DNA of 64,000 nt, taken from assembly GCF_020177055.1 (NCBI RefSeq), contig NZ_JAIQXT010000001.1, forward strand, positions 186,001 through 250,000. The letters run 5' to 3'. This DNA is from Sphingomonas sp. R647. Its GTDB lineage: Bacteria; Pseudomonadota; Alphaproteobacteria; Sphingomonadales; Sphingomonadaceae. This document shows positions 10,687 to 62,167 of this stretch, piece after piece. Within the stretch, counting starts at the first letter, position 1. Every line of letters starts with the position of its first letter. The notes under the pieces are model-generated. The model was not told the origin of the DNA. It did no database searches and was given only the letters and a program-made list of their open reading frames with translations. The translations under genes and the position numbers were made by a program.

Positions 10687-13599
10687 ATGAAGACACTCAA
10701 GTTCGCGCTGGTCTGCGCATCGACCATGCTCATTGCGCCAGACGCGCTGGCTCGGCAGGCGGACGCGCAGACCTATGATATCGCCGAGACCGATCTTGGC
10801 CGGGCGCTCAACCAGGTCGCGGCCCGGTCGGGACGGCAGATCCTTGTCGCGGACGATCTTGTCCAGGGTCTCCGGGCGCGCCGCCTCAAGGGGCGCTATG
10901 CCCCCGAGGCTGCGCTCGCCGCGCTGCTCGCGGGCACCGGGCTGCGCGCAGTGGTGGTCGGCGATACGCTGGTGATCCGGCGCGCCGACGCGCCGGACCA
11001 GGATATGGCGGGCGAGGAAGTCCTTGTGACGGGCACGCGTATCCGTGGCCATGGTCCGGTGGGTTCGGCAGTGGTGACGATCGATCGTGCGGCCATCGAT
11101 CAGGCGGGCTTTTCGACCACCCAGCAGATCGTTCAGTCGATCCCGCAGAATTTCGCAGGCGGCGCCAACGAGAATACCGCCGGGCTGCTGACCGCGGCGG
11201 GGAACGGCAATGCCGGGCGCGGATCGAGCGTCAATCTGCGCGGTCTTGGCCCGACCTCGACCCTGCTCCTCGTCAATGGCGATCGCCCCCCGCTCGGCGG
11301 CTTTGGCGGGACCTTTGCCGATCTGTCGGTCATCCCCGCCTCGGTCATCGAGCGCGTCGAGATTGTCGCCGATGGCTCCTCGGCAATCTATGGATCCGAC
11401 GCGGTCGCGGGGGTGGTCAATGTGATCACGCGCCGCGATTTCGATGGCGCCGAAAGCAACTTCCGCATCGGCACCGCCGATGGCGACGCGCAGGAATATC
11501 AGCTGAGCCAGCTGCTCGGCACACGCTGGGCAAGCGGGCATGCGGTGGTTGCCTATGAATTCTACCAGCGCGACGCGCTCGCCGCGGCCGACCGCGCTTA
11601 TGCGACCGACGATCTGCGCCGCTTTGGCGGACCCGACCGGCGCGGTCCTTATGCGGTCCCGGGTACGATCCATGCCGGCGGGACGAGCTTTGCCATTCCA
11701 GCCGGTCAGAACGGCGTCGGTCTCACCGCCGCGCAACTGACCGCGGGCACGGTCAATCTCGGGGACCGCTGGCTTGGCGCCGATCTGTTGCCCCAGCAAC
11801 GCCGCCATTCGGTGTTCGCAGCGATCAGCCAGAATGTGGGAGACACGCTCCGCATCTATGCCAATGGCCTCGCGACCTGGCGCAGCTTCACAAGCGCGGT
11901 GCAGCCGAGCGGGGACACGCGGCGGACGGTGCCGGTGACCAATCCCTTCTACGTCGATCCGATCGGCACCAACCAGCCGATCGGGGTCAATTACAGTTTC
12001 GTGCGCGACCTTGGACCCGAGCGCGACGCGGGCCAGGTCAATGCCTATGGGCTGACCGGCGGTGCCGAAGCGCGGCTCGGGCCATGGCGGGTCGATGCCC
12101 ATGCCACCTGGGGGCGGCAGGACGAGCGCTACGCCATCTTGAACCGGGTGAACTCGGCCAGGCTCGCGCTGGCGCTCGCCGATCCTGATCCCGCGACCGC
12201 CTATAATCTGCTCGGCGATGGCGCCACCACCAATCGCGCGACGATCGAGTCGGTGCGCGGCTATTCGAGGCGCAGCTTCTATGGCATGTCCTGGTCGGCG
12301 ACCTTGCGCGCCGATGGCCCGCTGTTCACGCTTCCGGCAGGCGCGGTGCGGCTCGCAGTGGGTGCCGAGTATCGCCGCGACCGCAATCGCGATGGCGAGA
12401 CCATCTCCTATACCGCGACGCTCGATCCGCGCGTGACCGCGCCAACCCCGCTGCCCGATGCGCGGATCGTCAAGGCGGCCTATGCCGAGCTGCTGATCCC
12501 GATCTTCGGGGAGGGAGCGCGCCTGCCAGGCTTCCGGCGGCTCGACCTGTCCGCGGCAATTCGCACCGAAGACTATTCGGATTTCGGAAGCACGCGAAAC
12601 CCAAAGATCGGCCTCGTCTGGGAAAGCCTGCCTGGCGTGCGCATCCGCAGCAGCTACGGGACCTCGTTCCGCGCGCCGCTGTTCAGCGAGATGCGCCAGG
12701 ACCCGAGCTCGATCGGCTATTTCGCATTTCCCGTCGCCGATCCCCAGTCGCCGACCGGCACGTCGAACCTGCTCGTCATCCGCGGCAATGATCCCAATCT
12801 GCGGCCCGAGCGCGCGACGAGCTGGACGCTCGGCGTTGATCTCACGCCACGCTTCGTGTCGGGTTTCCGGTTCAGCGCGACCTATTTCGATGTCGATTAT
12901 CGCGACCGCATCGCCAGCCCCGCGCCCAATCTCGCCAATTTCCTGGTCAACCGGAACATCTATGACCCGATCCTGACGCCCAATCCGACCCCGGCGCGGA
13001 TCGCGGAAGTCTATGCCTCGCCTTATTATCTCGACCTGTTCGGCATCCCGCAGACCGCCACCTTTGTCGCCGAGGCCGATGCGCGGCTGCAGAATCTGTC
13101 GGTGGTGAGGCAGTCCGGGCTCGACCTCGATATCGGCTATGCGTTCGGGATCGCCGGCGGGCAGGCCGAGATCGGGGCGGTTGCGACCCATATCTTCCAT
13201 ATCCGCCAGGCGCTCACCGCAACTGCAGCCGCGATCGATGTGGTCGACACGATCGGCAACCCGGTCGATCTGCGCGTCCGCGGTCGCGCCTCCTTCGAAA
13301 AATCAGGCTTTGGCGCGGCGCTGTTCGTCAATCATGTCGATGGCTATTGGAACCGCACGACCGCCGTGCCGCAGCGCGTCGCCTCCTGGACGACGTTCGA
13401 TCTCAATCTGAGCTATCGGTTCAGCGAGACCAGCGGCGCGCTGGCGGGTGTGCGTGTCGCGCTCAACGCCAGCAACCTGTTCGATCGCGACCCGCCCTAT
13501 GTGACCTATACGGTTGGAAGCTACACCAGCGGGTTCGACGCTGAAAATGCCAGCCCGCTGGGCCGCATGATCGCGCTCCAGGTCACCAGGACATGGTGA
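10687..13599 (+). CDS. TonB-dependent receptor with N-terminal signalling (STN) domain, probable lasso peptide importer
   Basis: A 970-residue outer-membrane receptor. After a signal peptide (LVCASTMLIAPDALA) comes an STN domain at about residues 30-95 (YDIAETDLGRALNQVAARSG), then a TonB box-like VLVTGTRI, a plug domain (VNLRGLGPTSTLLLVNGDRP, ERVEIVADGSSAIYGSDAVAGVVN) and a beta-barrel ending in aromatic VTRTW. The STN domain shows it signals through the FecR protein encoded just upstream. The start at 10687 sits behind GGGAGG. In astexin-type loci the equivalent receptor is thought to import the lasso peptide for cleavage by the isopeptidase. The isopeptidase gene overlaps this one by seven bases here, which supports that role. 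Confidence 0.9.
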   Translation: MKTLKFALVCASTMLIAPDALARQADAQTYDIAETDLGRALNQVAARSGRQILVADDLVQGLRARRLKGRYAPEAALAALLAGTGLRAVVVGDTLVIRRADAPDQDMAGEEVLVTGTRIRGHGPVGSAVVTIDRAAIDQAGFSTTQQIVQSIPQNFAGGANENTAGLLTAAGNGNAGRGSSVNLRGLGPTSTLLLVNGDRPPLGGFGGTFADLSVIPASVIERVEIVADGSSAIYGSDAVAGVVNVITRRDFDGAESNFRIGTADGDAQEYQLSQLLGTRWASGHAVVAYEFYQRDALAAADRAYATDDLRRFGGPDRRGPYAVPGTIHAGGTSFAIPAGQNGVGLTAAQLTAGTVNLGDRWLGADLLPQQRRHSVFAAISQNVGDTLRIYANGLATWRSFTSAVQPSGDTRRTVPVTNPFYVDPIGTNQPIGVNYSFVRDLGPERDAGQVNAYGLTGGAEARLGPWRVDAHATWGRQDERYAILNRVNSARLALALADPDPATAYNLLGDGATTNRATIESVRGYSRRSFYGMSWSATLRADGPLFTLPAGAVRLAVGAEYRRDRNRDGETISYTATLDPRVTAPTPLPDARIVKAAYAELLIPIFGEGARLPGFRRLDLSAAIRTEDYSDFGSTRNPKIGLVWESLPGVRIRSSYGTSFRAPLFSEMRQDPSSIGYFAFPVADPQSPTGTSNLLVIRGNDPNLRPERATSWTLGVDLTPRFVSGFRFSATYFDVDYRDRIASPAPNLANFLVNRNIYDPILTPNPTPARIAEVYASPYYLDLFGIPQTATFVAEADARLQNLSVVRQSGLDLDIGYAFGIAGGQAEIGAVATHIFHIRQALTATAAAIDVVDTIGNPVDLRVRGRASFEKSGFGAALFVNHVDGYWNRTTAVPQRVASWTTFDLNLSYRFSETSGALAGVRVALNASNLFDRDPPYVTYTVGSYTSGFDAENASPLGRMIALQVTRTW

Positions 13600-15701
13600 C
13601 CCGCCTGGGCCTTGCCGTGCTGGTTCTGCTGCTCATCGGCCCGGTCGCGTCTGCCCAAGCGGCGCCGGCCGGATGCCGGGAGCGCCTGTTGCCGCCCATC
13701 CCCGGGGCGGCAACAGGCCAGCGGCCGATTACCGGGCGCGACCTGATCGAACTGCGCGACTTCGGGCGGCTCGACACTGGCGCCGCGGGAGCGCCGGTTT
13801 TCTCGATCTCGCCCGATGGGCGCTTTGCGGCGATCGCGCTGCGGCGCGCCGAGGTTCGCACCAACCTTTATTGTTTCGGGATCGCCCTGGTGCGGCTGGA
13901 CGGGTCGGCTCCGGTCAGGCTGGTCGATGTTGGCGGCGCCTTCATTCCCTCGCTCAACGACATCCGCGGCGTGCCCGCGATTCCCAACGGGACGCCGGTC
14001 GCGCTCGCGCCGCTCTGGTCGCACGATGGTCGCGCGCTCTTCTACCTGCGGCGCGACCATGGGCTCACCCGGCTGTGGCGGGCCACGCCCGACGGCACAG
14101 CGGGGCGGGCGGTCACCGCGCTGTCCACCGACATCCTCTCGGTCGAGCAGGCGGGCGATGGCCGGACCCTGTTGCTGGCCACGCGCCCCAGTCTTGCGGC
14201 CGCGCGCGAAGCGATCGATCGTGAGGGGCGAAACGGCTTTCATTTCGATGCGCGCTTCTGGACCGTGTCCGAGGCAAGGCCGCGCCCGGCACTGCCGCTT
14301 CCGCTCACATTCAGTGCGTTCGACCCGGACCGCATGACAGTGCGGACGCTGTCGCCGGCGCAGGCCGAGGCGCTGCGGTCACGCGGGGCGCAGGACCGGC
14401 CGCGCGGCGCGGTGCTGTTCGCTTCGGGCGGGCAGGGCAGGGCATGGACCGTGCCCGATGACCCGCGCCGGTTCCTGTCACCCGCGCGGCTTCATGTCGA
14501 GGTCGGCGGGCGCGCGCTTGGCTGCCCCGATGCCCTTTGCGGGCGCGGCATCGGCGGCATCTGGTGGGTCGGCGACATGCTGATCATCCTGCGCGGTGGT
14601 GGCCCTGAAGATCAGGGACGGCTCAGCCTGTACAGCTGGCGGGTCGGCACCGAGCGAGCGCCGCAGCTGCGCTTCTCGAGCGATGCCGCGCTGCTTGGGT
14701 GCGCGCTGCAGGGTGCCGCCCTGCTCTGCGCGCGCGAGACCGCGACCGAGCCGCGTCATCTCGCCCGGATCGCGCTTGCCGACGGCCAGGTGACCAGGAT
14801 CTTCGACCCCAACCCCGAATTCGCACAGGTGGCGCTGGGATCGGTGGCACGGCTCGCCTGGACCGATGGTCGGGGGGCGCGGACCTATGGCGATCTGGTG
14901 CTGCCGCGGTTCCATCGGTCCGGCGAACGGCGCCCGCTGATTGTCGTCCAGTATCAAAGCAGGGGGTTCCTGCGCGGCGGGACGGGCGATGAATATCCGA
15001 TCCATCTTCTGGCCGAGCAGGGCTTTGCGGTGCTGAGCTTCCAGCAGCCCGCCCGGCTTGCGGCGACCGATGCCGCACCCGACCTCAACAGCCTGCAGAG
15101 GATCAACATTGCAGAATGGGCAGGGCGCCGCGCGATTCTCGCGGCGTTGCATGCCGGGATCGATGCCGCGATCGCGCGCGGCGCGGTCGATCCCGCCCGG
15201 ATCGGCCTGACCGGCATGAGCGACGGGGCCACCACGACCCAGTTCGCGCTCAACACCTCGCAGCGGTTCAGGGCGGCGGCGATCAGCTCGTGCTGCGACG
15301 AACCATCGGGGCTGTTCGCAATCGGACCTGCCTATCGCGACGCGCTGCTGGCCTGGGGCTATCCCCGCCAGTCGAGCGACGATGGTGAGTTCTGGAAACC
15401 CATGTCGCTCAGCCGCAATGCACCTGCAATGAGTACGCCGTTGCTGATCCAGGTGCCCGATGCCGAATATCGCGGCGCGCTCGAGGCGGTATCGGCGCTC
15501 GAGCAGCATGGCGCACCGGTCGAGATGTACGTGTTTCCCGACGAACATCATGTGAAGGCGCAGCCGGCGCATCGCAGCGCGATCTACCAGCGTGCGATCG
15601 ACTGGTTCGGCTTCTGGCTGATGGACCGGCGCCCGGCGCGCGGCACCCGCGACGCCGAGGTCGCGCGCTGGGAGCAGATGAAGGCCGCCGCCCGGCCGTG
15701 A
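13593..15701 (+). CDS. lasso peptide isopeptidase (S9 prolyl-oligopeptidase family, AtxE type)
   Basis: A 702-residue secreted serine hydrolase with a signal peptide (residues 1-23, LGLAVLVLLLIGPVASAQA). The first two thirds are WD/beta-propeller-like with repeats such as PVFSISPDGRFAAIA; the C-terminal alpha/beta-hydrolase domain holds the nucleophile in GMSDG (about residue 548), an Asp in QVPDAEYRG and the catalytic His in DEHHVKAQPAHR. AtxE-type enzymes open the macrolactam of the cognate lasso peptide. Translational overlap with a signalling TonB receptor and a lasso biosynthetic cassette next door make this the isopeptidase rather than a general dipeptidyl peptidase. It ends directly against the convergent cyclase gene, with no base between the stops. 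Confidence 0.88.
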   Translation: MVTRLGLAVLVLLLIGPVASAQAAPAGCRERLLPPIPGAATGQRPITGRDLIELRDFGRLDTGAAGAPVFSISPDGRFAAIALRRAEVRTNLYCFGIALVRLDGSAPVRLVDVGGAFIPSLNDIRGVPAIPNGTPVALAPLWSHDGRALFYLRRDHGLTRLWRATPDGTAGRAVTALSTDILSVEQAGDGRTLLLATRPSLAAAREAIDREGRNGFHFDARFWTVSEARPRPALPLPLTFSAFDPDRMTVRTLSPAQAEALRSRGAQDRPRGAVLFASGGQGRAWTVPDDPRRFLSPARLHVEVGGRALGCPDALCGRGIGGIWWVGDMLIILRGGGPEDQGRLSLYSWRVGTERAPQLRFSSDAALLGCALQGAALLCARETATEPRHLARIALADGQVTRIFDPNPEFAQVALGSVARLAWTDGRGARTYGDLVLPRFHRSGERRPLIVVQYQSRGFLRGGTGDEYPIHLLAEQGFAVLSFQQPARLAATDAAPDLNSLQRINIAEWAGRRAILAALHAGIDAAIARGAVDPARIGLTGMSDGATTTQFALNTSQRFRAAAISSCCDEPSGLFAIGPAYRDALLAWGYPRQSSDDGEFWKPMSLSRNAPAMSTPLLIQVPDAEYRGALEAVSALEQHGAPVEMYVFPDEHHVKAQPAHRSAIYQRAIDWFGFWLMDRRPARGTRDAEVARWEQMKAAARP

Positions 15702-17444
15702 TCAGCACTGCCATGCCCTGGCCCAGGCTTCGACGTCCGCCAGCGCCAGAAGGTCCGCCACCGCCTCACCATCGGGCATGGCCTGGGCGAGCGCGTCCGC
15801 GATGCGCGAGGCATCGGCGATGCCCTCCCGGACAAGCAGTCCGTCGAGCAACATGCCGCGCAGCGCAGCACTGTTGGACCGGATCACGCGCGCACCAAGG
15901 CTGTCAAAGGCCGCCTTGGTGCGCCGCTCGATCACCGCGCGCGGTAGCAGGTCGCGAAACGCCTCGCGGGCGATCGCCCGGTTCTCGCCGCGATCGAACC
16001 AGAGCCAGGTCGGTATGCGCAGACAGGTCTCGACGACGGGCTGCGCGAGCAGCGGCGAGCAGATCGGGCCAATCGCCTGACGTCCAAAGCCCTCCATATG
16101 GTTGAGAGTGCTGAGCAGCGCCCAGACATGCCGGCGTTTGCCGGGCAGGCTCGCGGGAACCGCTTCAAGCCATGGGTTGCCGACCGGCCAGGGCAGATCG
16201 GCAAGCGCGGCCCTGGCGAGGAACCGGTTGGTGCGGGGCTTTGGCAGCAGGCGGTCGCGTTCGAACCGTCGCCCGAATGCCGAGCGTGCGGCCTCCCAGA
16301 AGGTAATGTCCGCGATCTCTGCGACATCCATGGTCGTGTGCGCCGCATGCCTGCCAAGGCCATGCCGTCTGATCACATCCACGATCGGGAGCGCTGACTG
16401 GAGATGGCAGAAGACATTGTCGCCACCACCGCCACTGAAGAACATGTCGGCGCCGATCGCGCCGGCAAGGCGCTGCAGCGGCCGGTCGAGCGCCTGCGCG
16501 AAGGATCGTGCGCACGGCCAGGGCAGGGCTGCTGAATCCGACCGGGATATATCGACTGCGGCGACCGCGAGGTCGAGCTCTTCGAGCTCGAGGCCATGAT
16601 GGGTGGCGACCGCGCGCGCATAGCTGCGTTCGTCCGAGTCGCCAGGAAGCGGGACAAAGGTCGCGCAGGTCGGAGCGGCGCCGGCCTGGGCGAGGCTCGC
16701 GGTGACAATCGAGGAATCGAGCCCGCCGGAGAGCTCGACAATCGGTCGCGCGCAGGTGCGGCCCCAGGAACGCGTCGCCTGCAGCACGGCTTCGCGCACC
16801 GCCCGCGCCGCCTCGGCGCGGTCGACAAGCTCAAGCTCTGGACGGGTGAAGCACCAGGGCGACCAGATCTGCCGCGTCGCGGACGCGCCCTGACCAAGGC
16901 GCAGTGCCGTGCCCGGCGGCACTTCGCTGATCCCGCGCAGCGCGGTCCGCGCCGGGCGCAGATCGCGAAAGGCGAGCGCCTGGGTGAGGATGGTGAAGTC
17001 GATCGTCGGCGATACAAGGCCCATCGACACAAGTGCGGCCGGGGTCGAGGTGAGGATCTCGATGCCGTCGGCCTGCGCTGCATAAGCGGGCACCATTGCC
17101 GAGGGATCGCGCACGACCTCGACCGCATCGTCGCACGCGCGCAGCGCAAGATAGCCGCCCCAGAAGCGGGTGACGAACCGCTCGGCCGGCGCGTGCAGTT
17201 CGGGGTCGTGGCCAGACACGTCGAAGCTGGCGCTTCGTCGGTCGAACAGCCTGCCCCAGATGATCGCATTGCCGCCATTCGGGATGAGATGGGGGCTCGA
17301 CGGGCGGCCGAGGAAAACCAGGCGGGGTGTGTCGACCAGGACCGCGAGGCCCTGGCGGGACAGGTCTTCAAACGCTGCCGACAGCTGCGGGGCAAATGGC
17401 CTGCCGGGATCGCGGATGAACGCGAAATAGGGATCGATGATCAT
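15702..17444 (-). CDS. lasso peptide cyclase (asparagine-synthetase-like macrolactam synthetase, C protein)
   Basis: A 580-residue ATP-dependent enzyme that adenylates the side chain of the ring-forming Asp of the precursor and closes the macrolactam with the N-terminal Gly. The asparagine synthetase domain carries the PP-loop SGGLDSS at about residue 239 and the region FSGGGGDNVF. The N-terminal half resembles the amidotransferase fold but begins MIIDPYF and lacks a Cys at position 2, as usual for lasso C proteins. Its ATG overlaps the stop of the B protein by one base (TGATG). It is the last gene of the minus-strand lasso operon, after precursor and B protein. Confidence 0.9.
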   Translation of the reverse strand: MIIDPYFAFIRDPGRPFAPQLSAAFEDLSRQGLAVLVDTPRLVFLGRPSSPHLIPNGGNAIIWGRLFDRRSASFDVSGHDPELHAPAERFVTRFWGGYLALRACDDAVEVVRDPSAMVPAYAAQADGIEILTSTPAALVSMGLVSPTIDFTILTQALAFRDLRPARTALRGISEVPPGTALRLGQGASATRQIWSPWCFTRPELELVDRAEAARAVREAVLQATRSWGRTCARPIVELSGGLDSSIVTASLAQAGAAPTCATFVPLPGDSDERSYARAVATHHGLELEELDLAVAAVDISRSDSAALPWPCARSFAQALDRPLQRLAGAIGADMFFSGGGGDNVFCHLQSALPIVDVIRRHGLGRHAAHTTMDVAEIADITFWEAARSAFGRRFERDRLLPKPRTNRFLARAALADLPWPVGNPWLEAVPASLPGKRRHVWALLSTLNHMEGFGRQAIGPICSPLLAQPVVETCLRIPTWLWFDRGENRAIAREAFRDLLPRAVIERRTKAAFDSLGARVIRSNSAALRGMLLDGLLVREGIADASRIADALAQAMPDGEAVADLLALADVEAWARAWQC

Positions 17445-18097
17445 CAGACCACCAGGATCGGCGCATAGCGCCGGACATGGTCAGGATGATCGTTGAGCAG
17501 CAGGCCGTCTGTCTGCAGCCAGCAATGCGCAAGAAACGGCTCGGCGGTGACTCCAACGACAATCTTGCGGGGAGGGGCGGTGTCGCCAAGCCAGCGATCG
17601 AGCGCGAGCGAGTCGAGCAGGCAGTTCTTCGCGATCGGCACCAGCCGTCGTGCGCGGTGATAGGCCGCAAGCATCGCCGGAGCGAGGGCCGGGCCGGCCG
17701 GGAGTGCTGACCGCTGTGCGCGATGCGCACCGAGCAGGGTTTCGAGCCGACGGGTCCGCAGCGCCAGCCAGGTGCCAATTACCTCGCCTGCCAGACGCGC
17801 GGCGCCGAGGCGGGGCAGGGCGTGCGCCAACTCCTGATGGGGAACCGCATTGGGGATGGAGACCGGCGCGGCGCGCGCGCTGAGCTGCCTGAGATCGGAT
17901 CGCTCAACCAGCCTGCTGCGAACCAGGAACGCGGCGATTATGGCAGGTGCTGCCCCGCCGCCCTGAGCGAACCAGTCGCGCACGTGCGGGGCAAGACGCG
18001 CGGAGACCCGGAAATAGCGGTCGGCGCGAAGATCGAGCAGGATGACGGCCTCGCCGGCAAGGCAGGCGGTCAGATGGGGGAGGAGCGTCCAGATCAC
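17444..18097 (-). CDS. lasso peptide B protein, fused leader-binding (RRE) and transglutaminase-like leader protease
   Basis: A 217-residue maturation protease. The N-terminal 80 residues form a PqqD-like RiPP recognition element (VILLDLRADRYFRVSARLAPHVRDW) that binds the leader. The C-terminal B2 domain holds the cysteine protease triad: Cys in VPIAKNCLLDSLALDRWLG, His in PFLAHCWLQTDG and an Asp shortly after. The fused B1-B2 form is characteristic of proteobacterial lasso clusters. I chose the second of two adjacent GTG codons (18097) because the GAGGA ribosome site is then about six bases away; 18100 is possible. An ATG-started reading extending to 18196 would run into the precursor gene and is rejected. 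Confidence 0.88.
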   Translation of the reverse strand: MIWTLLPHLTACLAGEAVILLDLRADRYFRVSARLAPHVRDWFAQGGGAAPAIIAAFLVRSRLVERSDLRQLSARAAPVSIPNAVPHQELAHALPRLGAARLAGEVIGTWLALRTRRLETLLGAHRAQRSALPAGPALAPAMLAAYHRARRLVPIAKNCLLDSLALDRWLGDTAPPRKIVVGVTAEPFLAHCWLQTDGLLLNDHPDHVRRYAPILVV

Positions 18098-18118
18098 CAC
18101 AGGTCCTCGTGGCACCTT

Positions 18119-18144
18119 GTCGGCGCGGCCGGAGCCGCGCCGAC
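18119..18144 (-). promoter_or_regulatory. strong hairpin between lasso precursor and B gene
   Basis: A perfect 10-bp inverted repeat (GTCGGCGCGG/CCGCGCCGAC), extendable by one C-G pair to leave a four-base loop, lies between the precursor stop (18153) and the B start (18097). Such a hairpin could stabilise the short precursor transcript or partly terminate it, giving more precursor than enzyme. Role inferred, structure seen. Confidence 0.6.
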
Positions 18145-18152
18145 GCCGGCGC

Positions 18153-18290
18153 TCAGTTGTCCGAGAGACCGATGGGCACCTGATAGCCAAAGCCATCGAT
18201 CAGGCCCTCGTTGAGGCCCTGGGTCTCGACGCTGGCGGCGCCCAGGTCGATCAGCTCGACCGCGTCTTCATTGATGCGTTCCATCTTCAT
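18153..18290 (-). CDS. lasso peptide precursor (sphingonodin/syanodin-like, 45 aa)
   Basis: A 45-residue peptide gene directly upstream of the B and C genes. The leader is residues 1-24 and ends in VETQ, with the usual Thr at the penultimate position. The core begins at Gly25. Ring residues GLNEGLID place Asp at core position 8, so an eight-membered Gly1-Asp8 macrolactam is predicted. The tail GFGYQVPIGLSDN has 13 residues, with Phe and Tyr available as plugs. Ring size, core length of 21 and the GLSD ending resemble sphingonodin-type peptides. Two starts are possible: ATG at 18290, or ATG at 18284, which has the better distance (seven bases) from GGAG. Confidence 0.9.
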   Translation of the reverse strand: MKMERINEDAVELIDLGAASVETQGLNEGLIDGFGYQVPIGLSDN

Positions 18291-54304: not shown

Positions 54305-54643
54305 TCAGATGCCCGGTGCATTTAAGCCGCCGTTGCGCCGCTCATCCCGGCGGTTGAGCATCTTGAGCCGCCCAGTGATTTCAGCGCGCTGATCGTCGAC
54401 CGGTTCGGCCGCTACCACAGCGCGCCGGAAGCGTTCGGAATTGCGGGCATCGAGGCCGATCCGCCCGGCGAGCGCGAGATTGGCATAGAGAATCCGGGTC
54501 GCAAGCTCGCGCCGCTCGCATTCCGTCGTGAGCACAGCCGCCCTGGCTACGAAAAAGCGACCGCCGCGAAGGGCGGCACGAGCAAGGACAGAGCGGTCCG
54601 GTCGCCTTCGCCTCTCGCCACGTTCATTTTTCCAGTCGATCAT
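54305..54643 (-). CDS. possible hypothetical protein, weakly supported
   Basis: A 112-residue frame beginning MIDWKNERGERRRRPDRS, Arg/Ala-rich, with an apparently helical end. Codon third positions are only moderately GC-rich and no family is recognised, so it may be chance. It is listed because nothing else occupies this stretch upstream of the first PqqD-like gene. Confidence 0.25.
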   Translation of the reverse strand: MIDWKNERGERRRRPDRSVLARAALRGGRFFVARAAVLTTECERRELATRILYANLALAGRIGLDARNSERFRRAVVAAEPVDDQRAEITGRLKMLNRRDERRNGGLNAPGI

Positions 54644-54697: not shown

Positions 54698-54970
54698 GTG
54701 CGACCACGCGCCATGATCCGCCCCGCCCTGGAACTCTACTGGCCGCCCGTTCCCGGCGAACTGGCCATTTATGACACGCGGGATGGGCGATATCATGTCT
54801 TGAACCCTTCGGCGGCTGTGATCTGGTCGGCGATCGCTGCAGAAACGCCGGTCGCCCGGATAGCGGCAGACCTCGCCGCGCGGTTCGGCATCGCGGTGGA
54901 TGTGATGCAGGCTGATGTCGATGCATTCGTCGCCAACGCGCTCCAGCTCGGGCTGCTGGTCGATGCGTAA
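54698..54970 (+). CDS. PqqD-like RiPP recognition protein (first copy)
   Basis: A 90-residue protein of the PqqD/RRE family, which binds the leader of a ribosomal peptide and presents it to the modifying enzymes. The fold is visible as three strands and helices: YDTRDGRYHVLNPSAAVIWS, ARIAADLAARFGIAVDVMQA and the end VANALQLGLL. Start: GTG at 54698 has GGAGG seven bases before it; ATG 54713 is possible. It lies nine bases before the cyclase-like gene, and a second PqqD-like gene follows that one. Confidence 0.85.
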   Translation: MRPRAMIRPALELYWPPVPGELAIYDTRDGRYHVLNPSAAVIWSAIAAETPVARIAADLAARFGIAVDVMQADVDAFVANALQLGLLVDA

Positions 54971-54979
54971 GCTTGCGGC

Positions 54980-56884
54980 ATGAGCGGGATTGCAGGTGCG
55001 ATCTTTACCGACGCGCGGCCGATCGGGCCGGAACTGCTCGACCGCGTCGCCGGATCGACCTTCAGCCGCGGCTTTGACGGGGTCCAGACCTGGCATGACG
55101 ACCGCGCGGGCTTTGTCCGATTTGCGCATGCGACGACCCCGCAAGCGCGCGGTGAGACCCAGCCCTTTACCGGCGCGGAGTCACAGATCGCACTGCTGCT
55201 CGACGGGCGGCTCGACAATCGCAGCGCGTTGCTCGCGCTGCTGGGTACGGACGGCGCTCGGCTGGCCGACGCACCCGACGGGTTGATCGCGCTCAAGCTG
55301 TTCGAGCTGGAGGGGCGTGAGTTCGTTCATCGGCTGGTCGGCGACTATGCGATTGCCGCGTGGCAGCCGCGCAAGCGCCGGCTCGATCTGTTCCGCTCGC
55401 CGATGGGGTGGCGGCCGTTTTTGTGGGCGTATGACGGCATTACCTTTGGCTTCGCGACCGAGCCGCGCGCGCTGATCCTGGGGCTGGGGTTCGAGCGCAA
55501 ACTCAACGAGGGCGCGATCGGCGAGTATCTGTCTGCGCGCTTTGTATCGGAAACCGATACCTTGTGGGCCGGGATCGAGCGCGTGCCGCAGGGGGGCGCG
55601 ATCGCCTTTGAGAATGGCCGCGTGTCGCGCTGGAACTGGCATGGCGGGCCATTCGAGGATCTCTCGAACCGGTCGCTCGAGGAGCATGTCGAGCGGCTCA
55701 ATCACCTGCTCGACCAATCGCTTGTCGCGACCAGCCGCAGCGTCGGGCCGGTAACGGCCCAGCTATCCGGCGGGCTTGATTCCTCATCAATCGTCTGCCG
55801 CTCGACCGAGTTATTCCGCGCGGGCAAGCTCGATCATCCTGTCGGCGCGATCTCCGCGCGCTTTCCCGGCGAGCCGCATGACGAGACCGAATGGAGCAGC
55901 GCGGTCGAGGCGCATCTTGGCATCGCCGCCGAGGTGGTCGGCGCGCGGCGCTTTGATCCCGACGTTGCACGGCAATGGTGCGCCGACTCCTACCAGCTGC
56001 CGGTGCGGCCCAATGTGCTCGACTCGATGGGCGGGGTGCTCAAGGCGCTCAAGGCCGATGGGCGGCGCGTGCTGTGGACCGGCGAGGGCGGCGACGACTG
56101 GCTCAACGGTTCGCTGGCGCACTGGCCTGATCGCTTCATGGCCGGGCGCTGGGGAAAGCTGTTCCGCCATGGTGCGGAGCTGTGGCCCAACTCGCCCTGG
56201 CATGTGCAGGCGCGACGCACGCTGCACAGCACGGTGCTGCCACTCGCCAGCCGCAAGCATCGCGAGGCGTTGCTGACCCCGCATCTCGACTTCCGCCTCG
56301 ACCGGCCCGACTGGGTCCGGCCCGAATGGATGGAGCGGATCGGGCTGGTCGATCGCTGGCAGCAGAAGATCGAACGCACCGGCTTGCGCGGTATGGACCA
56401 GCAGTCGCGCTACAGCGTCTTCTCGCTTGGACGGCGCTACACGATGGTCGACAGTGTCCTCGCCTTTGCCGAAAATCACGGGGTCGAGGTGCGCCACCCG
56501 CTGCACGACCGGCGGCTCACCAGCTTTTTCATGGGCGCAGGCGGCGAGCATTTGCGCAAGTTCAATACGCGCAAATTCCTGCTGCGCGAGGCAATGAAGG
56601 GCACGCTGCCCGAGAAGATTCGCCAGCGCCGAACCAAATCCTATTTCGTGTCGCATCAGGTCGACGCGATCGGCGCGTTGTTGCGGCAGAAGCCGGTACA
56701 TGAGTTGACGGCGGTCAAGCTCGGCTGGGTGGTGCCGGAAAAGATCGCGGCGATGCACGCGCCGTTCGAGGCGTGGCGGCAAGCCGGTGGGCAGGGGCCG
56801 ATCCCCGAAACCGCATGGGGCCCCGTCTGGTTCACGCTTGCCACCGACATGTGGCTGGAGCATGCCTTCGGGCTCAAAGGGTAA
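54980..56884 (+). CDS. asparagine-synthetase-like ligase, probable lasso-type cyclase of the second RiPP cluster
   Basis: A 634-residue protein with a full-length N-terminal amidotransferase-like domain and an AsnB domain with PP-loop AQLSGGLDSSSIV (about residue 260) and TGEGGDDWL. Residue 2 is Ser, not the catalytic Cys of glutamine-using asparagine synthetases (MSGIAGAIF), so glutaminase activity is unlikely. That and two flanking PqqD-like genes point to a RiPP macrolactam or amide synthetase. It is much longer than the cyclase at 15.7 kb and is not a close copy of it. It starts nine bases after PqqD copy one. Confidence 0.85.
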   Translation: MSGIAGAIFTDARPIGPELLDRVAGSTFSRGFDGVQTWHDDRAGFVRFAHATTPQARGETQPFTGAESQIALLLDGRLDNRSALLALLGTDGARLADAPDGLIALKLFELEGREFVHRLVGDYAIAAWQPRKRRLDLFRSPMGWRPFLWAYDGITFGFATEPRALILGLGFERKLNEGAIGEYLSARFVSETDTLWAGIERVPQGGAIAFENGRVSRWNWHGGPFEDLSNRSLEEHVERLNHLLDQSLVATSRSVGPVTAQLSGGLDSSSIVCRSTELFRAGKLDHPVGAISARFPGEPHDETEWSSAVEAHLGIAAEVVGARRFDPDVARQWCADSYQLPVRPNVLDSMGGVLKALKADGRRVLWTGEGGDDWLNGSLAHWPDRFMAGRWGKLFRHGAELWPNSPWHVQARRTLHSTVLPLASRKHREALLTPHLDFRLDRPDWVRPEWMERIGLVDRWQQKIERTGLRGMDQQSRYSVFSLGRRYTMVDSVLAFAENHGVEVRHPLHDRRLTSFFMGAGGEHLRKFNTRKFLLREAMKGTLPEKIRQRRTKSYFVSHQVDAIGALLRQKPVHELTAVKLGWVVPEKIAAMHAPFEAWRQAGGQGPIPETAWGPVWFTLATDMWLEHAFGLKG

Positions 56885-56890
56885 GCGATA

Positions 56891-57181
56891 ATGGTGCAGC
56901 CGGTAGCGATCAACGAGACGACGATGCTGCGTCGCAAGGCTGCGGTAGTCGGCGCCGACGTGGCCGACGACGCGATCCTGCTCGACATCGATTCGGGCTA
57001 TTTCTTCCAGCTCAACCGCACCGGTGCGAAGATCTGGGCATTCGTTGAGGAGCCGCAGACGCTGGGCGCGCTGACCGATCGCATGGCGGCCAGCTACAAG
57101 GTTGATGTCGACACCTGCCGCAGCGACGTGACCGAGTTTGTTGCCGATCTGATCGAGCGCGGTGTGCTCGAAGCCGAATAG
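56891..57181 (+). CDS. PqqD-like RiPP recognition protein (second copy)
   Basis: A 96-residue PqqD/RRE-type protein, clearest in DDAILLDIDSGYFFQLNRTG and AKIWAFVEEPQTLGALTDRM, with C-terminal helix VTEFVADLIERGVLEAE. It begins six bases after the cyclase-like gene. Two different PqqD-like proteins around a single cyclase could serve two precursors or two enzymes (for example the cyclase and a tailoring enzyme). It ends ten bases before the convergent oxygenase gene. Confidence 0.9.
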   Translation: MVQPVAINETTMLRRKAAVVGADVADDAILLDIDSGYFFQLNRTGAKIWAFVEEPQTLGALTDRMAASYKVDVDTCRSDVTEFVADLIERGVLEAE

Positions 57182-57190
57182 GATCGAGCT

Positions 57191-57790
57191 TCAGCTTCTC
57201 GCGCGGTAGATCCAGCAATTCACCGCGAAACGGGAATCCGCGAACGCGCCGGACGCGCACTTGACTGGCATCACCTCATGCGGACCCCATGACGGGAAAA
57301 CCACCAGGCTGTTGTCGTCTGGCGCGAGGTCGAGCCCGGCATCGCCGGGTGCCGCGCCGAGGCGATGGAGCCGCAGGGCGCCGCCCTCAAACCCCTTCGG
57401 CTGGCGGTGGAAATAATAGACTGCGCTCAACATCCGGTCACCCCGCGCGATTTCGCTGCTGGCATAGGTATCGGTATGGAGCGTGAAGTGAGCGCCGTCG
57501 TTGTGCGCTGCCAACTCCAGCTCGACTTCGCTGATGGCGAACGCGGTGGAGCGGAGCGCGGCGATCCAGCGCGGTGCTTGTTCGCGCAGCCGGGCGTCGA
57601 GCGCCGCCGCAAGCGGGCCAAGGTCGCGTAGCGTCAGCGCGCGCCGGAGTTCGGGATTGACTGTGCCGCCGTTCAGGCGGGCGGGCGTAAACCGTGCTTC
57701 ATTTGCGAGCGCCCAGTCGAGCAGCGCGGCATGCGTGAGGACGTCAAGAAAGTCGACGATGCGTAGGTGCGGCAGGGTCGGCGCGGTCAT
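57191..57790 (-). CDS. 2-oxoglutarate/Fe(II)-dependent oxygenase (prolyl 4-hydroxylase/SM-20-like)
   Basis: A 199-residue non-haem iron oxygenase. The HxD motif is HFTLHTDTYASSEIARGDRM, the distal His is in WGPHEVMPV, and the 2-oxoglutarate Arg in DSRFAVNCWIYR. It would hydroxylate a side chain, for example of the cluster's peptide. Its ATG overlaps the stop of the sulfotransferase gene, so the two are coupled. It is the last gene of the minus-strand series. Confidence 0.88.
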   Translation of the reverse strand: MTAPTLPHLRIVDFLDVLTHAALLDWALANEARFTPARLNGGTVNPELRRALTLRDLGPLAAALDARLREQAPRWIAALRSTAFAISEVELELAAHNDGAHFTLHTDTYASSEIARGDRMLSAVYYFHRQPKGFEGGALRLHRLGAAPGDAGLDLAPDDNSLVVFPSWGPHEVMPVKCASGAFADSRFAVNCWIYRARS

Positions 57791-58638
57791 CCCGTCGACC
57801 GCACCGGCATCGCGCGCTCGCGCAAATAGCGTAGCACCATCGCCTCACTCGCGCCATCCGCCTGGCGTCGCATCCGAGGCGTCTGCGGCTCCGCATCGCT
57901 GCCCAGATGGCGCAACACCGCGCAGACCGTGGCGGCATAATCGGCGGTCAGCGCCTCATAGGTCAGGCTGAGCGGGCGCACAGCCATCGCCGCGAACAGG
58001 TTGCGGAAATGGCCGTGACAGAAATCCGAATAGCTCATGATGCGTTCGATCCGTTCGATATCGAACGGCGCAGCGGCGGGCGCGTCATCCTGCGTCGCAC
58101 CGGGGATCGATCGCCAGCGCCCGGTCTCAATCGCGAGCACCGCTGACACCGCCTGGCGCAACTTGTCTTCCCGCCACAGATGGACGAACGCGGGGTTCGG
58201 AAACAGCCGCGCGACATGGCCCGCCAGCACGCCATAATAATCTGCTGGAACATCAGATGGCGGCACATTGGCGAAGCGCTCAAGCTCGGGGTCCGCGTCG
58301 CGCGCGATCTCCTCGATGTCGCGCCAGAACAGCTTCACCCCCAGCGTCCCGTCGGGCGCGGTGCGATGGCGGCGGATTGCTGCGCTCAAGCTGTCGAAGT
58401 CGGGAGCATCCCACCGCCGTGCGAACGACGGGCGAAACCCGGCATGGAAATATTCGAGCGGGCAGCCCAGCCCGCCGGCAAAATAGAGAGCTTCGCCGAG
58501 GAGGGTGCTGCCCGATCGCGGATGGGTGCACAGCAGGACGGTGCGCAGGGGCGGCCCGTCCCAATCGGGATAATCATGGGCTGCCGATGCCAGATCATAG
58601 GGCGCAACGGCGGAAGCGCGATCGGAGATTTGCGTCAT
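57787..58638 (-). CDS. Stf0-type sulfotransferase
   Basis: A 283-residue sulfotransferase. The PAPS 5'-phosphosulfate loop is LLCTHPRSGSTLLGEALYFA, and the region VHLWREDKLRQAVSAVLA is typical of the Stf0 branch (3'-phosphate site and substrate cap). It would transfer sulfate to a hydroxyl group of a sugar, lipid or Tyr/Ser/Thr side chain. Inside a RiPP-like cluster, directly after a precursor candidate with Tyr, Ser and Thr in its end, peptide sulfation is the simplest guess. Start at 58638; 62 bases after the precursor. Confidence 0.87.
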   Translation of the reverse strand: MTQISDRASAVAPYDLASAAHDYPDWDGPPLRTVLLCTHPRSGSTLLGEALYFAGGLGCPLEYFHAGFRPSFARRWDAPDFDSLSAAIRRHRTAPDGTLGVKLFWRDIEEIARDADPELERFANVPPSDVPADYYGVLAGHVARLFPNPAFVHLWREDKLRQAVSAVLAIETGRWRSIPGATQDDAPAAAPFDIERIERIMSYSDFCHGHFRNLFAAMAVRPLSLTYEALTADYAATVCAVLRHLGSDAEPQTPRMRRQADGASEAMVLRYLRERAMPVRSTG

Positions 58639-58700
58639 CCCGCGGTGCAGCCAGTCAACTTCCCTTTACGCCGCGTTATATCCGCGCGGGGCGGCATCAA

Positions 58701-58850
58701 TCAGGGCGTCAGATTGCTCATGCCGTCGGTCGGGCGATAGGAAACACCCTCCGCCGCCTTGGCAGGGAGGAAGCTGGCAATCTCGGGCTTCACCCACTCT
58801 TCGGCCTCTGCCGGAGCGACGGTCTGCTCGTTCTGCGGAAGCTGTTCCAT
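58701..58850 (-). CDS. candidate RiPP precursor peptide (49 aa)
   Basis: A 49-residue gene with a good AAGGTGG ribosome site upstream, inside the tailoring-gene series. Its middle, EWVKPEIASFLPAKAAE, matches the lasso leader pattern Y/W-x-x-P-x-L/I that PqqD-like proteins bind. After it comes a Gly, and the end GVSYRPTDGMSNLTP has an Asp eight residues from that Gly, so an eight-membered Gly-Asp ring with a short tail is possible. Against lasso: the leader's penultimate residue would be Ala rather than Thr, and the tail is only seven residues. The reading is seen in the sequence; the precursor role is inferred. Confidence 0.75.
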   Translation of the reverse strand: MEQLPQNEQTVAPAEAEEWVKPEIASFLPAKAAEGVSYRPTDGMSNLTP

Positions 58851-58902
58851 GAATACCCACCTTTTGATGAAGCTATTCGTTTACCACCGAACCATGATCG
58901 GT

Positions 58903-59958
58903 TCAATTCGCTGCCCATAAGCGTACGCGGTCTCGCTCATGCGCGCCGCCGACCTTGACCAGTTCACCCGCCTGCGTCTCCAGCGGCTCAGGGAACCGCC
59001 ACAGTAGCGCGCCCCAACAAGACGCAGTTCCCGATTCCGGGCGATTCTCGTACCGCCCGACCCGATCCATCTCGAGCGCGATCCATTGGACGAGCCCATC
59101 GACCTGCCCACCCTGCGACGCGATGTCGAATTCGCGTCGCTCGGGCTTGCGTGGAACGGCAGTGGCGAAGTCGAAGCTGAACAAATCGACCGGGTCGCTG
59201 CACAGCGCCACCTGATCCATGCCGACGCGGATCATCTCATAGGGCGCGGCGAGGCGGTTGAACGCGCCGAGATCGAACCCGCTCACTTCGCCGAGGCGCG
59301 GCGCGCGGTCGCGCAGGTCGCGGGCGAGTGCAACGCGGATCGTGCCGCGCAGGGGAATGACCACGCCATTGGGGGCAAGCAACCGTGCGACCGCATGCTC
59401 ATGGGCAGCGAGTACGCCTTCGCTCAACAGGTCGTTGCTGACGATCTCCGACACCAGAATGTCGGCCAGCCCGCCCATGTCGCGGGTCGGATCGAGGTCG
59501 GTCGAATGCTTGTTCACCACTGTTATACGGTCGGCGTAGCCGTTCGCCGCAACCACGTCGCGCGCCGCCGAGGCGATGGTCGGATCGGCCTCGCAGGTCA
59601 CCACCGTCGCGCCCGCACGCGCCGCCATCATCGCGAGCAGGCCAGTGCCGGTGCCGATTTCCAGCACCCGGCAACCGGGTCTGATCGCGCGAAGCAGCGC
59701 CTGTTCATAGGCGTCGTTGCGTTGGCGATCGCGCGGGATCAGGAAGTGCCAGCTGAACACGCCATCGCTAAGGATCTCGGCGGCGGTGATGCCCGCCTCT
59801 CCACGACCGCCGGTCATCGCATGAACCTGTTCCGCCAGTGCGATTGCGCGGACCCGGTCGCCTGCCGCGATCATATGACGGGCGATCGCGATGAGTGCTC
59901 GGGGGTTGTCCGATGCCTTGGGCAACAGGGCAGAAAGCGCGGCTATGCGATCAGTCAT
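58903..59958 (-). CDS. PRMT-like SAM-dependent methyltransferase
   Basis: A 351-residue protein. Residues 1-60 look helical and TPR-like (RALIAIARHMIAAGDRVRAI). The SAM-binding domain has VLEIGTGTGLLAMMAARAGA and VVTCEADPTIA, and the double-E-like loop LVSEIVSNDLLSEG of arginine methyltransferases is present. The C-terminus is a beta-barrel like that of PRMTs. The candidate precursor contains one Arg just after the presumed Gly (VSYRP), which could be the target; otherwise carboxyl or N-terminal methylation is possible. It lies between the HprK-like gene and the precursor gene. Confidence 0.85.
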   Translation of the reverse strand: MTDRIAALSALLPKASDNPRALIAIARHMIAAGDRVRAIALAEQVHAMTGGRGEAGITAAEILSDGVFSWHFLIPRDRQRNDAYEQALLRAIRPGCRVLEIGTGTGLLAMMAARAGATVVTCEADPTIASAARDVVAANGYADRITVVNKHSTDLDPTRDMGGLADILVSEIVSNDLLSEGVLAAHEHAVARLLAPNGVVIPLRGTIRVALARDLRDRAPRLGEVSGFDLGAFNRLAAPYEMIRVGMDQVALCSDPVDLFSFDFATAVPRKPERREFDIASQGGQVDGLVQWIALEMDRVGRYENRPESGTASCWGALLWRFPEPLETQAGELVKVGGAHERDRVRLWAAN

Positions 59959-59967
59959 CGTCCACGG

Positions 59968-60930
59968 TTAGCTGACTACGGCCGTCGCGCAACCATCGTC
60001 TGTCAGCAGCGGGCGGAGCAGCGCCTCGACGTTTGGCAATGCGGCATAGTCGCTGGGATAGACCAGCCGCCAGGCGGGACGGTTCTGTATCACGTCGCGT
60101 AGCCCCAATACTGCGTGAATACGTTCCTGAACGCTCGTGCCGCTCGGATTGAAGTGGATAATCTGCGGAACAATCAGCGTCATCGCCTCTGCAACATCCA
60201 GACGTTCGAGGCGTGGTTCGGACACCTCCGCACGCCGGTCAAGGAACACAAGTGCGCGCAGCGGCACCAATGGCGGCGGATCGCTTGCTGCGACCGGCGA
60301 GCGCCCCTTGCCGGTGGCGCTGGCGAGCGGGACGCTATCGTCGGACGATAGCGCCAGTCCATCGCGTGATTCCGGCCACAGGCACACGGTTTTGGCCCCC
60401 GCGCCCAGCATCGGTTTGGCCGGGGTCCACAGCAAGGCCGTATCGTCGCCCAGGATCTGCCAGCCGCTCTGAACCGTCAGCGCGGCGCAAAGCGTCGACT
60501 TGCCCGCACCCGACTGCCCCACCAGCAGCATCCCGCCGCCGTCCTGCATCAGTGATGCGGCATGGACCGCGATCGCGCCTTGCAGCATCGGCACGCGCGT
60601 AAGGACGCGCCGGAGCAGTACTTCGATTGCCGCCGGATCGGGCGGCATCGCGTCCACGACTAGGGTCATCACGCGCCCGTCGCGGTCGATCAGGAAGCTG
60701 CCGTCGAAGCGCGAGCGGATCAGCCAGCGGCCGTCTTTCTCGCCGATCCGCATGCGATAGCCGTTGCGCCATTCGTAGCTGACGACGTCATGTTCCACGG
60801 GCATGCCGACCTCGACGCGCAGGTCGAGGTCACCGGCCCAGCCGCCATCCGCTGCCTCGGCGGGAACCAGGCTGGGCAACACGATCGAGGATCGGACCAG
60901 AAGGCCACCAAAGCTGTAGAAATGGGTCAC
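59968..60930 (-). CDS. HPr kinase-like protein, probable peptide-modifying kinase
   Basis: A 320-residue protein with an HprK-type P-loop GQSGAGKSTLCAAL and the acidic pair in ILGDDTALLW, preceded by AIAVHAASLMQDGGGMLLV. No HPr or PTS genes lie nearby. HprK-like kinases are known in paeninodin-type lasso clusters, where they phosphorylate a C-terminal Ser of the peptide; the same cluster types carry nucleotidyltransferases and sulfotransferases, as here. It is separated by 9-16 bases from its neighbours, so it is in one operon. Confidence 0.87.
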   Translation of the reverse strand: MTHFYSFGGLLVRSSIVLPSLVPAEAADGGWAGDLDLRVEVGMPVEHDVVSYEWRNGYRMRIGEKDGRWLIRSRFDGSFLIDRDGRVMTLVVDAMPPDPAAIEVLLRRVLTRVPMLQGAIAVHAASLMQDGGGMLLVGQSGAGKSTLCAALTVQSGWQILGDDTALLWTPAKPMLGAGAKTVCLWPESRDGLALSSDDSVPLASATGKGRSPVAASDPPPLVPLRALVFLDRRAEVSEPRLERLDVAEAMTLIVPQIIHFNPSGTSVQERIHAVLGLRDVIQNRPAWRLVYPSDYAALPNVEALLRPLLTDDGCATAVVS

Positions 60931-60946
60931 GTTTCTCTGTCTGGGC

Positions 60947-62167
60947 TCACGATCGCAGGCGGCGGATCGCCCAGCCGAACGGGCGGATCAGCGGATACAT
61001 CCAGTCGAGCCGAGCGGGTAGCGCGAATGCGGCACGATCCTGCGGTGAACTGAGGTCGAAGGCAAGCTGACGGCCCCAGAAGGCGCGCGTTGGCTTCATC
61101 ACATAAGTGATCGCCCGGCTCCACACGCTTCCGGCGATGAAGCGGCGCACAGAATTGCGTGGTTGTGCCTCATACCATTGCGGTCCGTCATGGAAGCGCG
61201 CGACGAGCCGGTTAAGCAGCCGCACGTCGATGCGTCGCCGTGCGCGCGCCAGCACCTCGGGGGGCACCGGTCGCGCCAGCCAATGGTGCAGTGCCCAGGC
61301 GACATGGAGCATCGTCCCATCCAGCCCGAGCGGGGCCGCATCATCGAGGACGTCGTCCCACGCTGCGTGGTGGTCGAGCACCGCCGCCAGATCTACCAGC
61401 CACAACAGTCGCTGCCACCCATGTCGGATACCGTGGACCGCGAGATAGACCGGCAGCCGTCGCCGGGCCATTGTCGGCACCGCTATCCCGGCGATCATCA
61501 CCGTCTCACGCTCCGCCCAGAGCATCTCGAAGTCCCACGGCAGGAGCGTGTGATTGTCGCACAGCCGATCATGCAGCTCAACCAGGATGCGGCTCTCGCG
61601 ATGCACCCAGCCGCTTTCCTTCGGGGGCTCGGTCGCGTTCGGATCGGCGGGCGACGCATGGATCGGCAGTTCATAGCCCAGCTCGCGCAAAATCCCTTCG
61701 GCATCTCTCGTCCGCGCCCGCTCGATCAGCACGTCGATGTCCCGCCCGCCGCGCGCGAGCGGGTCGCCATGGAGCTGAACCGACAGCGCAATGCCCTTGA
61801 TGAAAAGGTGCCGGATGCCCGCGACATCCAGCGCCTGATTGATCCGCACCAACTCGCGTAGCCTTTGCATTACCCCCACCACATGCGCAGCATGCTCCGT
61901 ATGGAGGGTTGCGAGGACGGGGGAGGGAAGGGCCCCGGTTCGCAGCAGCGCGGGAACGGCCAGGCCGATCAGACCGTGATGTGCGATGCCGCGATGCACG
62001 ATGTCCCAGTGACGAACTTGTGCCCCAGCACGTTGCAACTGCGTCCTCGCAATGTCGCCCATTCCCACGATCCGCGCCGCTGCGAAGACGAAGCGCAACT
62101 CTGGCGAGAATTTCGGTAGGGGAGCTTCTTCAGCTTCTCGAGGCCGAGCCGCGAACACAAACATCAT
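60947..62167 (-). CDS. nucleotidyltransferase family protein
   Basis: A 406-residue protein. The nucleotidyltransferase core is GIRHLFIKGIALSVQLHGDP followed by the two-Asp motif in GGRDIDVLIERARTRD; the rest is mostly helical (LHHWLARPVPPEVLARARRR). Members of this family are common in lasso and other RiPP clusters and may transfer NMP to the product or partner with the kinase. It is first in the minus-strand series. The start at 62167 follows MMF; nearby alternatives exist. Confidence 0.85.
   Translation of the reverse strand: MMFVFAARPREAEEAPLPKFSPELRFVFAAARIVGMGDIARTQLQRAGAQVRHWDIVHRGIAHHGLIGLAVPALLRTGALPSPVLATLHTEHAAHVVGVMQRLRELVRINQALDVAGIRHLFIKGIALSVQLHGDPLARGGRDIDVLIERARTRDAEGILRELGYELPIHASPADPNATEPPKESGWVHRESRILVELHDRLCDNHTLLPWDFEMLWAERETVMIAGIAVPTMARRRLPVYLAVHGIRHGWQRLLWLVDLAAVLDHHAAWDDVLDDAAPLGLDGTMLHVAWALHHWLARPVPPEVLARARRRIDVRLLNRLVARFHDGPQWYEAQPRNSVRRFIAGSVWSRAITYVMKPTRAFWGRQLAFDLSSPQDRAAFALPARLDWMYPLIRPFGWAIRRLRS

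Follow-up and report, generated by a model that had tools for sequence, protein, structure and literature searches.

A conserved lasso-type peptide pathway in Sphingomonas with many tailoring genes and a leader peptidase that may be encoded elsewhere in the genome

The window analyzed here, 64,000 nucleotides of the genome of Sphingomonas sp. R647 (contig C1:186001–250000), contains at 54.7–62.2 kb two converging rows of genes: a PqqD–AsnB–PqqD row on the plus strand meets a nucleotidyltransferase (NTase)–HprK–protein arginine methyltransferase (PRMT)–peptide–Stf0–2-oxoglutarate (2OG) oxygenase row on the minus strand. Our analysis suggests that this locus encodes a conserved, lasso-type pathway for a ribosomally synthesized and post-translationally modified peptide (RiPP), and that its leader would be removed in trans by an unlinked B2 protease, a reading to which we give a probability of about 55%. 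Its full membership among the lasso peptides is provisional, because the Thr that usually occupies position –2 of the leader and a clustered B2 are both missing and the threaded topology is predicted only. The features of the locus, assigned by Pfam/NCBIfam scans and Protein Data Bank (PDB) searches, are as follows.

54326–54451 (+) and 54437–54538 (–): scrambled remnants of a cobalamin radical S-adenosylmethionine (SAM) C-methyltransferase (tblastn with the intact enzyme of the second copy, L034; E 1e-5 and 0.002)
54713–54970 (+): PqqD1, a discrete RiPP recognition element (RRE) (PF05402, 56.7 bits, cut-off 23.4; HPr-rel-A model TIGR04353, 36.1 bits, cut-off 35)
54980–56884 (+): AsnB-like macrolactam cyclase (lasso C) with SGGLDSS and no Cys2 (PF00733, Asn_synthase; GATase_7)
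56891–57181 (+): PqqD2, a discrete, lasso B1-like RRE (PF05402, 65.6 bits, cut-off 23.4; lasso PqqD model NF033536, 57.4 bits, cut-off 80)
57191–57790 (–): 2OG-Fe(II) oxygenase, weakly prolyl-hydroxylase-like (PF13640, 2OG-FeII_Oxy_3, 64 bits; PDB 6t8m)
57787–58638 (–): Stf0-type sulfotransferase (PF09037, 104 bits; PDB 1tex, E 1e-11)
58701–58850 (–): precursor peptide of 49 aa with the predicted core GVSYRPTDGMSNLTP (alignment of 14 precursors)
58903–59958 (–): PRMT7-like protein arginine methyltransferase (best PDB match PRMT7, 4c4a, E 2e-34)
59968–60930 (–): HprK-like kinase with GQSGAGKST and GDD (partial match to HPr-rel-A model TIGR04352, HprK_rel_A, 47.3 bits, cut-off 200)
60947–62167 (–): nucleotidyltransferase, NTP_transf_5 (PF14907, 154 bits)

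These nine genes had been described in an original prediction made from the letters alone, and the set is present as described there: all nine frames are open, the spacing is tight, and the families are matched by Pfam, NCBIfam or PDB entries. The start of PqqD1 is corrected, most likely to the ATG at 54713. Within Pfam and NCBIfam the PRMT-like protein otherwise matches generic methyltransferase models only, and the loop SEIVSNDLLSE, which we take to be the PRMT double-E loop, is visible in it by eye. The PDB matches of the 2OG oxygenase are weak, namely the prolyl 4-hydroxylase 6t8m (58 residues matched, E 6e-4) and 4iw3, presumably also a prolyl hydroxylase (E 1.4e-3). ARAGORN found zero tRNA genes in the window.

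The lasso-type identity that had been proposed is supported by three features: a lasso-like precursor, an AsnB clade without Cys2, and PqqD-type RREs, the lasso B1 component being represented by two PF05402 proteins. The cyclase begins MSGIAG and hence has no Cys2. Its best NCBIfam model is that of lasso cyclases, NF033535, with 219 bits, whereas the asparagine synthase model TIGR01536 gives 158 bits (cut-off 267). In a tree that included two of the genome's own asparagine synthetases, L190 and L191, and left out the third, L192, the window cyclase falls apart from both in an 8-row clade with 100/100 support. These scores and this placement rule out a true asparagine synthetase, one of the two outcomes by which the original prediction was to be judged. 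It appears quite unlikely that the enzyme catalyzes some other linkage (an amide, a macrolactam that is not threaded, or attachment to a second molecule) and so defines a new RiPP class that resembles lasso peptides. Such a class would fit the NF033535 score, which does not reach the cut-off of 525, the separation of the cyclase family from the genome's two other lasso-type cyclases (themselves on long branches), and the short tail of 6–7 residues after Asp8 in an aligned core that is nearly fixed. Against it, clusters whose cores otherwise differ still place Asp at 8 or 9 and begin the core with Gly, Ala, Ser or Asn, B1-type RREs occur throughout, and B2 is present in five related clusters.

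The precursor itself was aligned, ungapped and anchored on W-x-K-P, with those of related clusters, giving 14 precursors from 12 clusters with the window included. All 14 have the same number of residues between the leader Trp and the core, the leader motif is W-x-K-P-x-[ILV], and a cut placed after residue 16 yields Gly1 and Asp8 in 14/14. The aligned core of the family reads G-I-S-Y-R-P-T-D-G-L-S-N-L-T. The alignment suggests that the window core is GVSYRPTDGMSNLTP and that the ring is closed between Gly1 and Asp8; the calculated masses of the unmodified macrolactams are 1575.735 Da for the window and 1571.794 Da for the Sphingomonas pruni core, GISYRPTDGLSNLTP. By hand count, clusters farther away with other cores keep the 16-residue distance and have Asp at 8 or 9, as in AATINPGDALSSNS, which has Thr(–2). 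Codon differences between the window leader and those of its nearest relatives are mainly synonymous: 7/8 relative to L034 (core 9/12), 6/6 and 6/6 relative to the two L111 copies (core 4/7 and 1/3), 4/6 relative to L112 (core 4/6) and 8/8 relative to L030 of S. pruni (core 3/5). This pattern in the leader points to selection on the precursor gene at the protein level; weighing the other way, the changes are not mainly synonymous in farther relatives (for example, 5/12 in the leader of L097 and 4/11 in that of L096).

The gene set recurs in other sphingomonads and at a second locus of the same genome, so that the conservation on which the original prediction depended is borne out. In samples of genomes that overlap one another, the cyclase was detected in 15/295 genomes of the genus (E ≤ 1e-100), 4/397 of the family (E ≤ 1e-120) and 5/296 of the order (E ≤ 1e-110); by tblastn it has no match in a plasmid collection at E ≤ 1e-80. 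All nine genes are found in the same arrangement in the second complete copy (L034, C1:61000–77000, 75–88% identical per gene), in S. pruni (L030, where a contig end interrupts the first PqqD), in S. caeni (L029) and in a Sphingomonas metagenome-assembled genome (L028), which has two precursor genes. Sphingomonas sp. ERG5 (L031) and G311 (L094) have the set with the NTase inverted and PqqD1 not detected. The counts given below refer to 24 related clusters, in which L028/L111, L029/L112, L031/L095 and L039/L110 were each counted once as the same cluster; L032 (a truncated cyclase with no precursor found and no local B2) was excluded from these and from the core counts, and L099, in which no precursor was found, stands outside the core counts. 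The PRMT alone was rejected as a cluster marker: it matches 22/298 family genomes, yet 16 of 19 PRMT stretches are without a cyclase match. Related PRMT-like proteins in neighborhoods without cyclase matches were seen in L035 and L036 (contigs C9 and C12 of the R647 genome) and in L040–L053, and are possibly the stock from which the cluster enzyme came; in L040 a weakly matching HprK-like gene lies ~2 kb from the PRMT-like gene.

The evidence that bears on the leader peptidase comes from the distribution of B2. As originally noted, B2 is absent from 53.8–62.2 kb: the genome has two PF13471 matches only, at 17453–17764 of the window and at contig C9:31330, and a sensitive custom B2 profile, whose rows included L038 and L110, likewise finds nothing in that interval. 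A hidden, unannotated or broken B2 within the cluster was therefore rejected, being seen by neither profile. A local B2 is absent from 19/24 related clusters and present in 5/24 (L038, L107, L108, L110 and L116), absence being less certain at the contig ends of L100, L102 and L030; therefore the pathway is B2-compatible. Across the genus, PF13471 matches 130/295 genomes, comprising 15/15 cyclase-positive genomes and 115/280 of the others (Fisher p 3e-6). A tree of 42 B2 proteins divides them into 19 long and 23 mostly short, stand-alone proteins (split support 99/95). A profile of the stand-alone type matches 13/15 cyclase-positive genomes but 12/280 others at E ≤ 1e-60 (p 3e-14), a threshold picked after the match list had been viewed and one that leaves G323 (1.6e-60) outside the count, and 13/15 against 36/280 at E ≤ 1e-20 (p 1e-9). 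A B2-less cluster is present in 14 genus genomes. In eight of them (G155, G315, G321, G357, G376, G404, G476 and G531) the stand-alone B2 is isolated, that is, without a cyclase, PqqD or kinase match within up to ~9 kb in either direction, a span that contig ends shorten in three cases; in the remaining six it lies in a different cassette. G155 owes its place among the 14 to L109, in which an internal stop interrupts the cyclase; the other cluster of that genome has a local B2. The isolated proteins group, with modest support (87/74), with the cluster-resident B2s of L107 and L108. Of the two options originally offered for the missing protease, supply in trans thus gained statistical support, and non-classical leader cleavage gained zero positive evidence.

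Several observations weigh against trans supply. The profile of the stand-alone type was biased, all 12 of its rows coming from cyclase-positive genomes and 12 of the 13 counted being among them, and the co-occurrence p-values ignore shared ancestry. Two genomes, G529 and G535, have an isolated B2 but no cyclase match. In the R647 genome and its nearest relative, G538, the stand-alone type was not found at E ≤ 1e-20, and their candidate B2s (L001 and L062) lie in another cassette, with predicted precursors that have Thr(–2), not Ala(–2). All 14 aligned precursors have Ala, not the usual Thr, at –2, and Ala(–2) is reported to have blocked in vitro cleavage by another system's own B2 (PMC10368454); the same source records lasso precursors with Ile, Val or Ala at –2 as already reported or predicted.

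In an alternative that we regard as unlikely, B2 has become dispensable in this branch, and the leader either is cut off by an unrelated protease (housekeeping or exported) or stays on until after cyclization. In its favor, most related clusters have no local B2, 11 cyclase–PqqD cassettes of the R647 genome have none, Ala replaces Thr at –2, and that genome lacks the isolated B2 type. Two findings oppose it. No cyclase-positive genus genome is free of PF13471 (0/15), and Ala(–2) also occurs in clusters that hold a B2 (L038, L107, L108 and L110), among them relatives that share the core as well as this residue, which contradicts Ala(–2) as a mark of B2 loss. An unlinked B2 remains the favored, though inferred, leader peptidase.

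As separate observations on B2 neighborhoods, the isolated B2 of L117 (G302 C6:150001–170000) lies, by eye, beside an ABC transporter and CysD/CysN-like sulfate activation genes, ~32 kb from L032, a degenerate relative of the cluster, and L180 (G537 C66) and L181 (G531 C204) have NTase–B2–HprK–PqqD groups with no cyclase match found.

The missing B2 is not specific to the window locus. The R647 genome has 18 AsnB-like matches (E ≤ 1e-10), three of them above the asparagine synthase cut-off. Nine further AsnB–PqqD–HprK cassettes, all without a B2, were found in L202 (two cassettes), L203–L208 and L210. Together with the window locus and L034, this gives 11 cyclase–PqqD cassettes without B2, compared with two loci that have one. 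By eye, some of the nine carry another sulfotransferase. The B2 at C9:31330 is, to judge from the B2 tree, the likeliest helper protease, because it groups with the resident B2 of cluster L116 and with the B2 of G538. Its neighborhood (L037, C9:23000–40000) contains an AsnB, two HprK-like genes, a PqqD, a probable TPR–2OG protein and the stand-alone B2, together with a 50-aa precursor candidate in which ETA precedes GFPGRGLD, so that Thr is predicted at –2, and this cassette is conserved in G538 (L182). The other B2 belongs to a separate lasso-like cluster of the window, at 15702–18290 (–), with these features.

15702–17444 (–): AsnB-like protein
17444–18196 (–): long B2-type protein of 250 aa (PF13471, 59.8 bits; no PqqD part detected)
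18156–18290 (–): precursor candidate of 45 aa, in which ETQ precedes GLNEGLID

An oxygenase gene and an acyl-homoserine-lactone-synthase-like gene were noted by eye near this cluster. That the long B2 proteins are PqqD–B2 fusions was considered and rejected, because below E 0.01 the PqqD profile matches a single one of these proteins.

The wider gene set, judged by its recurrence, also includes a cobalamin radical-SAM C-methyltransferase. By tblastn such a gene stands beside or inside 7/12 clusters of this core type (L034, L111, L112, L094, L095, L096 and L097), L111 being scored positive despite a broken adjacent copy and absence being subject to the same uncertainty at contig ends as for B2. 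Two scanned proteins, one of them from L034, match TIGR03975 with 524 (L034) and 526 bits (cut-off 282). In ERG5 (L031) a radical-SAM gene is inserted in the set; in L034 the gene is intact and divergent from PqqD1; in L111 (G538, 11866–14965) the copy next to the cluster is broken in two, and a second, different radical-SAM gene lies on the opposite strand. The remnants at 54326–54538 indicate that the window copy is one that has lost a tailoring gene kept by its paralogue. These remnants, the broken gene of G538, and the complete second copy with its intact gene could also mean that the copy in the window is decaying after duplication and that its product is absent or simpler than that of its paralogue. 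With all nine remaining frames open and leader changes relative to near relatives mainly synonymous, this is highly improbable.

The pairing of tailoring enzymes with core residues gives specific form to the original suggestion of an unusually decorated product, which we infer from enzyme content. One Arg is present in the core of 11/11 PRMT-positive clusters and 0/12 PRMT-negative ones (p 7e-7), and Pro6 in 10/10 clusters with the 2OG type and 3/13 without (p 4e-4), both p-values being uncorrected for ancestry. Because core residues and enzymes co-vary in this way, methylation of Arg5 by the PRMT and hydroxylation of Pro6 by the 2OG enzyme are predicted. Individual clusters follow the same pattern: L098 has neither the 2OG gene nor Pro6, whereas its sister L038 (100/99) has both; L110 also lacks both; and L096, with no match to PRMT, Stf0, HprK or NTase, has the core GISFKPND, with Phe4 and Lys5, and retains Pro6 and the 2OG gene. 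L096 is also the sole relative of this core type without Stf0, and there Phe4 replaces Tyr4, yet Stf0 also stands beside Tyr-free cores, which leaves the putative sulfation residue ambiguous and counts against the proposed scheme. The kinase target may be Ser3, as for BsfK (PMC10368454), or Thr14; L096 and L097, the two members of this core type that lack HprK, have Ser in place of Thr14, which is indecisive.

The gene set, its conservation, the core alignment, the B2 distribution and the core–enzyme co-variation are read from sequence; in the scheme that follows, the reactions, the order in which they occur, the residues modified and cleavage in trans are all inferred. PqqD1 and PqqD2 would bind the W-x-K-P-x-I leader motif and deliver the 49-aa precursor for tailoring. 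While the peptide is still linear, the PRMT7-like enzyme would methylate Arg5, the prolyl-hydroxylase-like enzyme would hydroxylate Pro6, the HprK-like kinase would modify a Ser or Thr whose phosphate the NTase would elaborate, and Stf0 would add sulfate. An unlinked, stand-alone B2 would then cleave after AAE, aided by an RRE of the cluster, and the AsnB-like cyclase, which lacks Cys2, would finally couple Gly1 to the side chain of Asp8. A bolder version, possible if doubtful, is that one stand-alone B2 is shared by ~12 B2-less cassettes, each RRE giving specificity, and that the window product is a lasso bearing N-methyl-arginine, hydroxyproline and sulfate, to which relatives add a C-methyl group.

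If leader removal does occur in trans, then genome mining in which a lasso cluster must contain its own B2 would overlook most such loci in this group, a single protease might process many cores, and the locus would be a natural example of a class-defining RiPP enzyme separated from its cluster. The Arg–PRMT and Pro6–2OG pairings name their targets beforehand, and several modifications for which our searches listed no lasso example can be tested with one precursor. A search of titles and abstracts, which left subscription literature mostly uncovered, found no description of this gene set or of a lasso peptide decorated as in the bolder version, and passages of further papers mention neither a sulfated nor an arginine-side-chain-methylated lasso peptide. 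The accessible portion of a 2026 review of interlocked peptides contains no lasso-related mention of sulfotransferase, "sulfat-", hydroxyproline, "arginine methyl-" or radical SAM.

The locus extends the known kinase-bearing lasso pathways, with more tailoring genes, two RREs and, most probably, a leader peptidase from elsewhere in the genome. Phosphorylated lasso clusters of the paeninodin, SyanA and pseudomycoidin type share with it the discrete RRE, the AsnB-like cyclase and the HprK-like kinase, and some have an NTase or sulfotransferase gene; the pseudomycoidin NTase adds hexoses to the phosphate (PMC8498205). Those systems have a B2 (PMC10368454), whereas the window cluster has no local one; their kinases use a C-terminal Ser, whereas the window core ends in Pro; and the window cluster has in addition a PRMT, a prolyl-hydroxylase-like enzyme and a second RRE. 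The Bsf lasso cluster of Bradymonas sediminis shares the kinase, NTase, RRE and cyclase, a YxxPxL-type leader motif, the Gly1/Asp8 ring, a residue other than Thr at –2 and a core Ser3, which BsfK phosphorylates. It differs in having its own B2 and D genes, Ile rather than Ala at –2, a motif-to-core spacing one residue longer and none of the further tailoring genes (PMC10368454). Canucin A (CanE), lassomycin/StspM and lihuanodin likewise have a 2OG hydroxylase or a methyltransferase in a lasso pathway; CanE, however, hydroxylates Asp, whereas the window enzyme, prolyl-4-hydroxylase-like, pairs with Pro6, and StspM and LihM are O-methyltransferases, whereas the PRMT7-like enzyme pairs with Arg (PMC8498205, PMC9266682). 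Finally, lanthipeptide clusters with unclustered proteases offer a parallel in a leader protease encoded elsewhere, deduced there from genome-wide correlation. They represent another RiPP class with other protease families, and the Sphingomonas pathway would differ from them in unlinking B2, an enzyme that defines its class (PMC8960859).

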